Shown in pieces: positions 18,547-20,306 of a stretch of 44,756 nt of DNA. Position 1 is the stretch's first letter, and every line of letters begins with the position of its first letter. A model generated the notes under the pieces. The model worked only from the letters and a program-made list of their open reading frames with translations, searched no databases and had not been told where the DNA came from. The position numbers and the translations under genes are program-made. The DNA comes from Negativicutes bacterium (GTDB taxonomy: Bacteria > Bacillota > JAAYKD01), in contig JAJFTT010000045.1 of assembly GCA_021372785.1 (NCBI GenBank), positions 1 to 44,756 of the forward strand. Direction: 5' to 3'.

Positions 18547-19929
18547 TCAGTGGACCCGGCAATTTTTATTGACCCAATCCCGCATCAGAACTTTTTTGCC
18601 GACCGTGCTAAACTGAACGTTGATTTGCGTTTCGGTAACCTGGGTCAAGATACCTTCACCCCACACTTTGTGATAGATCGTTTGTCCCTGCTCGAAGTTT
18701 TGCTTTGGCAAAACAGAATTTTGTTTTTTCATTTCATCTTTCGCATAAGCGGACAAGACTCTTTGATAAACCTCGGTTTCGTCATCCGTAGCGCAAACCA
18801 AGGTGACTGCTAAGGCGTAGGTATTATTCTCAAACCATTTTCGTATCGCCTGCAGCGCTAATTTGGCTGCCTCCACCTTGGGATAACGATAGGCGCCAAC
18901 GCTGATACAGGGAAATGCGATGGAGTAAAGACCATTTTCCTTGGCGCAATCAAGACAGGCCTGGTAGGTTCTCTGCAGTAATTCCTTTTCACCGCTGTTG
19001 CCTCTGTTATATTTGGGACCGGCGGTATGAATGATGTAGTCGGCGCTTTCCAAATTATAACTGGCGGTGATGATCGCTTCGCCGGTCCGGATGGTCCGGT
19101 CTTTCAGCGCTTCTTTCAGTTCTTTGCCGCTTGCTTTATGGATCGGCTTATCGAGGCTGCCGCTGCCGGAAAGCTTGGTGTCTCCGGCGCTGACGATCGC
19201 ATCGATTCGGCTGATCGTGGTGATATCACCCTTGATCAAATTGATGCTGCTGGTCATCTGTTTATTCTCATTCTTGCGCGGCAGGGGAGTGCGGAACAAG
19301 GCGGCAAATGTTTCGTAGTTTTGTGCTTTCTCCAATAGATTTAAGCGGGATAAGGCGACAAAAACAGCGGCGGCCCTGGCGGCGCTGTTTACGTTTTTTT
19401 CGGAATTGAAATCAATGTCAGTAAAAGCGTCATACAGTAAGAGTTGCTCCGCCAGTTCTTTGCTTTCCATTAAAGCATTGACATAAAGGAAAGTATAAAA
19501 ACCGGTTTTCGGCTCCGGCGGGAATTGCTGATCTTCATAGCGAAAGCCGATCAGTTTTCCGTTTGTTTTCAATTCCGCGAATTTCCTGGCGGTTTTCGGC
19601 TTTAAATCGTAAATTTCCAAAAAGGGGCCGCCCTTTTCAAAAATTTGGCTGGCTTGGTAGATGTTTTCAATGGCGATGCTCTTTCCCAGACTGGGAACCT
19701 GTTTTTCCAGTTGAAAAGCACACAGTGCCAGACCAAGCGGGTGGGTGGCTTTGGCGGAGATTTCTAAAATTTGTTTCCCGGGATATTTTCCGGTGAAAAC
19801 ATCATGGATTGCGATGATATTCTTTTGTTTTTGAGCGGTTGCCAAGCCTTTGTTATACTCAAAATCAGCCTCAAATGTCTTGCAATATGGGGGACGGTTG
19901 ATACTGATAAAAATCGGTTTTACGGACAT
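18547..19929 (-). CDS. NADAR-like + macro domain + Tudor-like fusion protein
   Basis: Three modules in 460 residues. Residues ~1-215 match, as I recall the family, the DarT1-associated NADAR antitoxin family (markers: LATAQKQK at 29-36, ENIYQASQIFEKGGP at 88-102, PPEPKTGFY at 137-145, FNSEKNVNSAARAAA at 174-188). Residues ~228-395 form a macro domain (GDIT at 234, GSGSLD 255-260, IHTAGP 300-305, FPCISVGAYRYP 339-350). Residues ~411-460 resemble the Tudor-like tail of PcrA/UvrD helicases (HKVWGEG). NADAR and macro enzymes both can remove or bind ADP-ribose on nucleic acid or protein. In the macro domain the usual NAAN reads SAGD (247-250), which may alter catalysis. No DarT-like toxin is adjacent. 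A single gene between convergent nitroreductase and divergent GDPD genes. Confidence 0.8.
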   Translation of the reverse strand: MSVKPIFISINRPPYCKTFEADFEYNKGLATAQKQKNIIAIHDVFTGKYPGKQILEISAKATHPLGLALCAFQLEKQVPSLGKSIAIENIYQASQIFEKGGPFLEIYDLKPKTARKFAELKTNGKLIGFRYEDQQFPPEPKTGFYTFLYVNALMESKELAEQLLLYDAFTDIDFNSEKNVNSAARAAAVFVALSRLNLLEKAQNYETFAALFRTPLPRKNENKQMTSSINLIKGDITTISRIDAIVSAGDTKLSGSGSLDKPIHKASGKELKEALKDRTIRTGEAIITASYNLESADYIIHTAGPKYNRGNSGEKELLQRTYQACLDCAKENGLYSIAFPCISVGAYRYPKVEAAKLALQAIRKWFENNTYALAVTLVCATDDETEVYQRVLSAYAKDEMKKQNSVLPKQNFEQGQTIYHKVWGEGILTQVTETQINVQFSTVGKKVLMRDWVNKNCRVH

Positions 19930-20306
19930 CGTTGGTACCTCCCTCGGTTCAGGTTGAACTATGCACTATGCAAGCTGATTTTTTATAGATATGAGATTTG
20001 CCATAGAACAATAGTAGAATCGAATTTTCTAGCACTCTGTTCATTATACCACATCTTGGACTTGAATGGTGGAATACTTCTCAATCTTTTTGATTCACTT
20101 CATCGCTTTCCCCGCCGGATCGGACGGGTTCGTATTGATTGCGGCTGGTAAGGCAGCGCTGCGGTCTGTTTTGCTCTGATTTCGGGTTGGACTGGATTGC
20201 AGCCGGTGATGGCAGGAGCGAAGCGGAACCATCGTGAATTCAGGTAATCTGAAGTCGTTTCGTCGATGTTTTGTGAAAGAACAGACAAGCGGGGAGGCAA
20301 AACACA
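19930..20306. other. Divergent promoter region, macro-domain and GDPD genes
   Basis: On the minus strand a TATAAT box (plus ATTATA, 20043-20048) lies about 115 bases upstream of the macro-domain gene; no good -35 is seen at the right distance. On the plus strand the GDPD gene has GGGAGG 10 bases before its ATG. The AT-rich part (19970-20100) contrasts with GC-rich flanks. No gene is recognised. Confidence 0.45.

Follow-up and report, generated by a model that had tools for sequence, protein, structure and literature searches.

A NADAR–macrodomain–Tudor fusion protein encoded without a DarT toxin: a possible tethered reader or eraser of ADP-ribose

The window (the whole stretch of DNA that was analysed, 44,756 nucleotides) carries on its minus strand a gene for a protein of 460 aa, P0001, in which a NADAR domain, a macrodomain and a Tudor tail are joined in one polypeptide. 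The three modules had been proposed by the first-pass annotation and were borne out by the present analysis. The N-terminal part gave a significant match to the Pfam family NADAR-DarT1 (residues 4–211; PF22397, 230 bits, E = 2.1e-68, cut-off 27), residues 246–358 were attributed to the Macro family (PF01661, 101 bits, E = 5.6e-29) and the Tudor part was recognized through homologous tails and solved structures. The modules are real and their detection is far beyond chance. The gene and its parts are located as follows:

18547..19929, minus strand: whole gene, NADAR–macro–Tudor, 460 aa (open frame, Pfam matches, upstream AGGGAGG)
19297..19920, minus strand: NADAR-DarT1 domain, residues 4–211 (PF22397, structure 8BAT, predicted model)
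18742..19248, minus strand: MacroD-type macrodomain, residues 228–396, lying in the linker between NADAR and Tudor (PF01661, model pLDDT 93.8)
18550..18702, minus strand: PcrA/UvrD-type Tudor tail, residues 410–460 (homologous tails, profile and fold matches)
20043..20051, minus strand: putative promoter with an extended -10, TGGTATAAT, ~114 nt upstream of the ATG (a weak candidate, picked by eye)

A Shine-Dalgarno-like AGGGAGG is located at 19944–19938, 8 nt before the ATG. A promoter scan gave a number of sites not above that in shuffled sequences, and PADLOC returned no match. Modeling of the full-length protein using AlphaFold led to pLDDT values of ~96–97 for the NADAR and Tudor parts, while the macro part was of low confidence for lack of homologues; the macrodomain was therefore folded separately with its own homologues, and confident folds were thus obtained for all three modules. 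A combined structure alignment (A7) was dropped, as it laid macrodomains onto the NADAR. The G+C content was found to be 50% in the macro segment and 44% in both the NADAR segment and the tail, with neighbouring genes mostly at 52–56%. The macro segment is nearer in base composition to the neighbouring genes than the NADAR and tail segments are, which weakly fits a mosaic origin of the gene.

The closest solved structure to the NADAR domain was the G. lovleyi NADAR 8BAT (E = 1.6e-41), and a Foldseek comparison of the predicted model with this structure gave a target TM of 0.92 and 1.5 A. The residue numbering of the domain coincides with that of the E. coli C7 NADAR, in which catalysis involves E88, K95 and D171, and rescue from DarT1 depends on K115 (PMC11543638). 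In that enzyme, K95 is described as phosphate-coordinating and is essential for efficient guanine-ADPr hydrolysis, and the K95R variant keeps its activity in vitro but does not rescue cells from DarT1 (PMC11543638). The domain shares the profile, the fold, the numbering and the residues E88 and D171 with the DarT1-associated NADARs (BC4488 family; PF22397; 8BAT and E. coli C7), and Q92 is kept as well. It differs from them in having Gln for K95, Arg for K115 and Ala for Q183, in being fused to macro and Tudor parts, and in belonging to a genome without DarT1. The comparison set contained 112 relative fragments, 110 of which cover position K95, and the main replacements are the following:

19645..19647, minus strand: codon 95, CAA; Gln replaces the catalytic Lys (Lys in 110/110 relatives)
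19585..19587, minus strand: codon 115, AGG; Arg replaces the Lys essential for antitoxin action (Lys in 107/110 relatives)
19381..19386, minus strand: codons 182–183, Ser-Ala in place of Cys-Gln (Gln183 in 110/110 relatives)

In addition, E173 is replaced by Asp. When the 46 NADAR columns conserved at ≥95% were considered, P0001 differed at 11 of them, compared with 5 for the next most divergent of 109 sequences and a median of 0; the affected positions are pocket residues and parts of the AKxDxRL stretch that surrounds K115. P0001 is thus a clear outlier among NADARs in the conserved columns. The loss of pocket residues, which by the first-pass annotation would speak against its own reading, was partly observed: positions 95 and 115 have changed, whereas E88 and D171 have not. 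It is natural to suppose that guanine-ADPr hydrolysis by this domain has been lost or sharply reduced. Because the domain is without a residue that its enzyme activity needs, the whole protein is probably a repurposed reader or eraser and not a double eraser.

The macrodomain is of the MacroD/YmdB class and is not DarG-like. Its closest solved structures in a sequence search were of the MacroD class, and the best folds found by Foldseek for its model were YmdB, OiMacroD and MacroD2. A thymidine-ADPr macrodomain of the DarG type, to which the first-pass annotation had referred, was rejected, as the best matches listed were MacroD/YmdB proteins instead. A broad eraser of guanosine and thymidine marks was not supported, given Gln at 95 and Arg at 115 in the NADAR and a macrodomain of another class. 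DarG, the DarTG2 antitoxin, also contains a macrodomain acting on ADP-ribose; P0001, in contrast, has a MacroD-class macrodomain and no DarT, and no DarG C-terminal domain was found. The macrodomain has one altered loop, located as follows:

19135..19191, minus strand: altered distal-ribose loop, residues 247–265, SAGDTKLSGSGSLDKPIHK, with D260 and H264 kept (macrodomain alignment)

P0001 has the catalytic Asp/His (D260/H264) in common with the MacroD class (E. coli YmdB, OiMacroD, human MacroD1/2), but its loop is SAGDTKLSGSGSLDKPIH where the class has NAANxxLxGGGGVDGAIH, so that NAAN..GGGGVDG has become SAGD..GSGSLDK. In comparison with OiMacroD, the loop shows N27S, N30D and serine substitutions among its glycines, and the residues corresponding to G37, D40 and H44 are present; position N27 is Asn in 64/64 macrodomain homologues. 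The roles of these OiMacroD residues are known, and the variants N30A and D40A retain ~28% and ~14% of catalytic efficiency, respectively (PMC5413906), so the macrodomain of P0001 may be active despite its loop changes. Alternatively, N27S, N30D and GSGS could mean that this domain is inactive too.

Among the macrodomains found, Asp at position 250 together with GSGS occurred, besides P0001, only in L144 (L144:1465-2583, IMGVR_UViG_3300018493_000384), a macrodomain protein of 373 aa which has a loop, NPTDSKLSGSGSIDLRIH, similar to the unusual one of P0001 and which groups with macro proteins bearing a long C-terminal extension. The common GSGS loop may reflect kinship or convergence, and the very long branch of P0001 in the macrodomain tree (3.5) ruled out naming a donor. 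Note that the genome of P0001 encodes a second macrodomain protein (G000:C23:407-1417, L197; 336 aa, loop NAANTELRMGGGVCAAIF). Its macrodomain is without the usual Asp and His, and it carries a long C-terminal extension that occurs across related genomes.

Since both pockets are altered at highly conserved positions, it could be supposed that both domains are poor enzymes which bind ADP-ribose marks, and that the Tudor tail couples this recognition to RNA polymerase or UvrB, so that the protein signals or recruits. The remaining residues, namely E88 and D171 in the NADAR and D260, H264, G345 and Y347 in the macrodomain, could still hold ADP-ribose. However, K95 is described as phosphate-coordinating (PMC11543638), so that its loss may harm binding as well as hydrolysis, and MacroD enzymes tolerate loop mutations with residual activity (PMC5413906); we consider this explanation rather unlikely, and it is the best placed of the alternatives. 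Conversely, both domains might be active on two kinds of target and guard the cell from incoming transferase toxins. Each of the two families consists of ADP-ribosyl hydrolases, the NADAR has retained E88 and D171, the linker between the domains is flexible, and other NADARs of varied sequence have guanine-ADPr activity in vitro (PMC11125620). On the other hand, the lysine that is invariant at position 95 in the relatives is needed for efficient hydrolysis, even its replacement by Arg prevents rescue from DarT1 (PMC11543638), and the macrodomain does not belong to the DarG type specific for thymidine, which makes two working erasers in one protein improbable.

Residues 415–449 of P0001 matched PcrA_UvrD_tudor (PF21196) with 15.4 bits in the whole protein and 20.0 bits when the tail alone was searched, the cut-off being 23.9. 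A homologous C-terminal tail in the same frame was found in eleven NADAR relatives (phmmer E from 1e-15 to 2e-8), and the macrodomain is absent from all eleven. PF21196 was matched by 12/12 homologous tails (P0001 and the eleven, the best at 5e-6), and a profile of these tails retrieved UvrD/PcrA Tudors from the PDB, namely 7EGT (1.5e-7), 4C2T (5e-6) and 5DMA (1.3e-3). Foldseek analysis of the predicted P0001 tail gave 7EGT (1.2 A), 5DMA (1.7 A) and 7EGS (2.1 A). Sub-threshold when taken alone, the tail was confirmed as a PcrA/UvrD-type Tudor through its relatives. In a further relative, L041:3983-4884 (Lachnospiraceae bacterium TWA4), the Tudor tail is in a separate frame, split from the NADAR by a frame change at an A-rich stretch, which is possibly a sequencing error, a pseudogene or a frameshift.

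It has been reported that H681, W684, K712 and L714 of PcrA bind RNA polymerase (PMC5397179), and the alignment revealed H420, W423, K446 and L448 of P0001 as their counterparts. UvrB is another partner of the PcrA Tudor, recognized by the motif [VIL]Dxx-TGE-[VIL][VILT] (PMC8318588), and the host UvrB contains VNVLTGEIL, one mismatch from this published partner motif. Docking of P0001 on RNA polymerase or UvrB would be the best reading of these alignments. The four conserved contacts support the suggestion of the first-pass annotation, in which recruitment to polymerase was considered as a possible role of a PcrA/UvrD-like tail. Despite the same fold and the same four residues, the P0001 tail differs from the PcrA/UvrD Tudor in that it is not on a helicase, has a shorter inter-strand turn and ends with an extra WVxxNC. 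One other such Tudor was found in the genome, at the end of a 764-aa frame taken as PcrA itself.

The absence of a toxin gene nearby, noted at the outset, was found to extend well beyond the locus: no DarT1 gene is adjacent to the P0001 gene, as it is in the DarT1-NADAR (DarTG1) toxin-antitoxin system, and no DarT was found in the window or in the genome (97.5% complete), either with PF14487 or with a DarT1 alignment. The same DarT1 alignment found none in 26 genomes (that of P0001 and 25 with other DarT-less NADARs), while both positive-control genomes were matched (1e-77 and 1e-68); most of the genomes with DarT-less NADARs are metagenome assemblies, any one of which may lack a gene. The PF14487 search revealed a DarT of another kind in 2 of these 25 genomes; such a DarT-like gene, missed by the DarT1 alignment, is present in the genomes of L035 and L041 (G413:C60:20810-21025 and G419:C39:2837521-2838078).

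Most of the distant NADAR relatives adjoin a DarT1 gene, whereas the nearest relatives of P0001 do not. In a 106-row NADAR tree, P0001 was placed in a 31-row clade (SH-aLRT 98) with no DarT beside any member, and in a more careful 43-row tree a branch with 100/96 support separated it, together with the DarT-less proteins, from the DarT-bearing ones. A placement of P0001 inside the Tudor-bearing subclade was rejected, as the 43-row tree keeps the split between DarT-less and DarT-bearing proteins but does not fix the position of P0001 among the former. The clade consists of solitary, mostly clostridial NADARs, many with a Tudor tail, and P0001 alone has a macrodomain. The idea of an orphan immunity protein, put forward in the first-pass annotation, would overlook a whole clade of such NADARs without DarT. 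The NADAR sequences nearest to P0001 (L019, L020, L024, L026, L027, L031, L032, L035, L036 and L038; a group defined here) show up to 50% identity and, like P0001, have a homologous Tudor tail and no DarT1. Unlike P0001, they have no macrodomain, and K95, Q183 and, except in L031 and L035 (Arg), K115 are intact. No conserved partner gene of the DarT-less NADARs was revealed, since none of the 94 Pfam families over 73 neighbours occurred in more than two. Tudor tails were also found outside this clade (L045).

No orthologous fusion was found in the GTDB r220 contig scans (the 80 best of 370 NADAR relatives), in the viral contigs, plasmids or phages searched, in 398 genomes of the phylum or in 391 genomes of the class of a clostridial relative. 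P0001 also had no match in the sampled same-family genome G001 (93% complete), and synteny of the locus in this only same-family genome was discarded, as a GDPD match was too weak for an orthologue. So far, the NADAR–macro–Tudor fusion is unique to the genome of P0001. Published viral proteins, known here by description, also contain NADAR and macro in one polypeptide; in contrast to these, the P0001 gene is chromosomal, its NADAR is of the DarT1 type and it has a Tudor tail. A literature search for NADAR with Tudor found nothing relevant among the papers listed, which is not proof of absence. That the gene is a decaying or wrongly assembled one (a NADAR-Tudor gene that formerly functioned, fused by chance to a macrodomain and under no selection) would fit its occurrence in one metagenome assembly only and the length of its terminal branch in the NADAR tree (1.18; median 0.32), but is hardly probable in view of the intact 460-codon frame, the ribosome-binding site, the confident folds of three parts, the conserved Tudor contacts and the position of the macrodomain, which coincides with the linker of a NADAR-Tudor architecture that already exists and where a mis-join would hardly be in frame on both sides.

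The explanation that we tentatively prefer is that P0001 is a solitary, toxin-less reader or eraser of ADP-ribose, tethered by its Tudor tail to the transcription or repair machinery, with the macrodomain doing the work. The likely ancestral form, still present in the clostridial relatives, would be a NADAR–linker–Tudor protein acting as a guanine-ADP-ribose hydrolase with an intact pocket. Its tail could bind the TGE hairpin in RNA polymerase beta or in UvrB, and guanine carrying ADP-ribose would be cleaned at sites of stalled polymerase or excision repair. As the Tudor-tailed relatives have no macrodomain, a MacroD-type macrodomain was probably inserted into the linker of a NADAR-Tudor protein in the P0001 lineage, where the NADAR pocket has also changed. 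The tether is kept. With the phosphate-gripping K95 and the antitoxin-needed K115 lost, efficient removal of ADP-ribose from guanine is probably beyond the NADAR now. The macrodomain, with its catalytic Asp/His and a rebuilt loop, would probably be the working reader or eraser, acting on another ADP-ribose linkage or on free ADP-ribose derivatives. We infer this direction of change from the relatives; as the trees do not fix the place of P0001 within the DarT-less clade, direct descent from a NADAR-Tudor protein is suggested by the tail that they have in common. Against the preferred explanation stand the single example of the fusion, a docking assigned by homology with a tail below the Pfam cut-off, and the occurrence of Tudor tails outside the clade.

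Of more general interest than the fusion, which has a single example, is the DarT-less NADAR-Tudor clade. A recent study of NADAR specificity (2024) called the role of bacterial NADARs outside DarT operons unclear (PMC11125620), and a DarT-less clade, many members of which have a helicase-type Tudor tail with conserved RNA-polymerase contacts, bears on this question. It could be imagined, although we are doubtful of so broad a claim, that this toxin-free branch of DarT1-type NADARs in gut Clostridia performs transcription- or excision-coupled ADP-ribose surveillance, in which NADAR-Tudor proteins travel with RNA polymerase or UvrB and either clear ADP-ribosylated nucleic acid or mark it, and that in the genome of P0001 the macrodomain replaces a disabled NADAR as the eraser. 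P0001 can be regarded as a natural experiment, in which an eraser is without its key lysine and a second ADP-ribose module has been spliced in.

Several unusual arrangements were also observed among the DarT-bearing NADAR relatives. In L064:3185-4657 (a Selenomonadaceae MAG), one frame of 491 codons matches both the DarT1 and NADAR models and is possibly a single-protein toxin-antitoxin fusion. In L068 and L088, DarT follows NADAR, unlike the usual order of DarT1 and then NADAR, and in L059 and L080 DarT is located on the strand opposite to NADAR.
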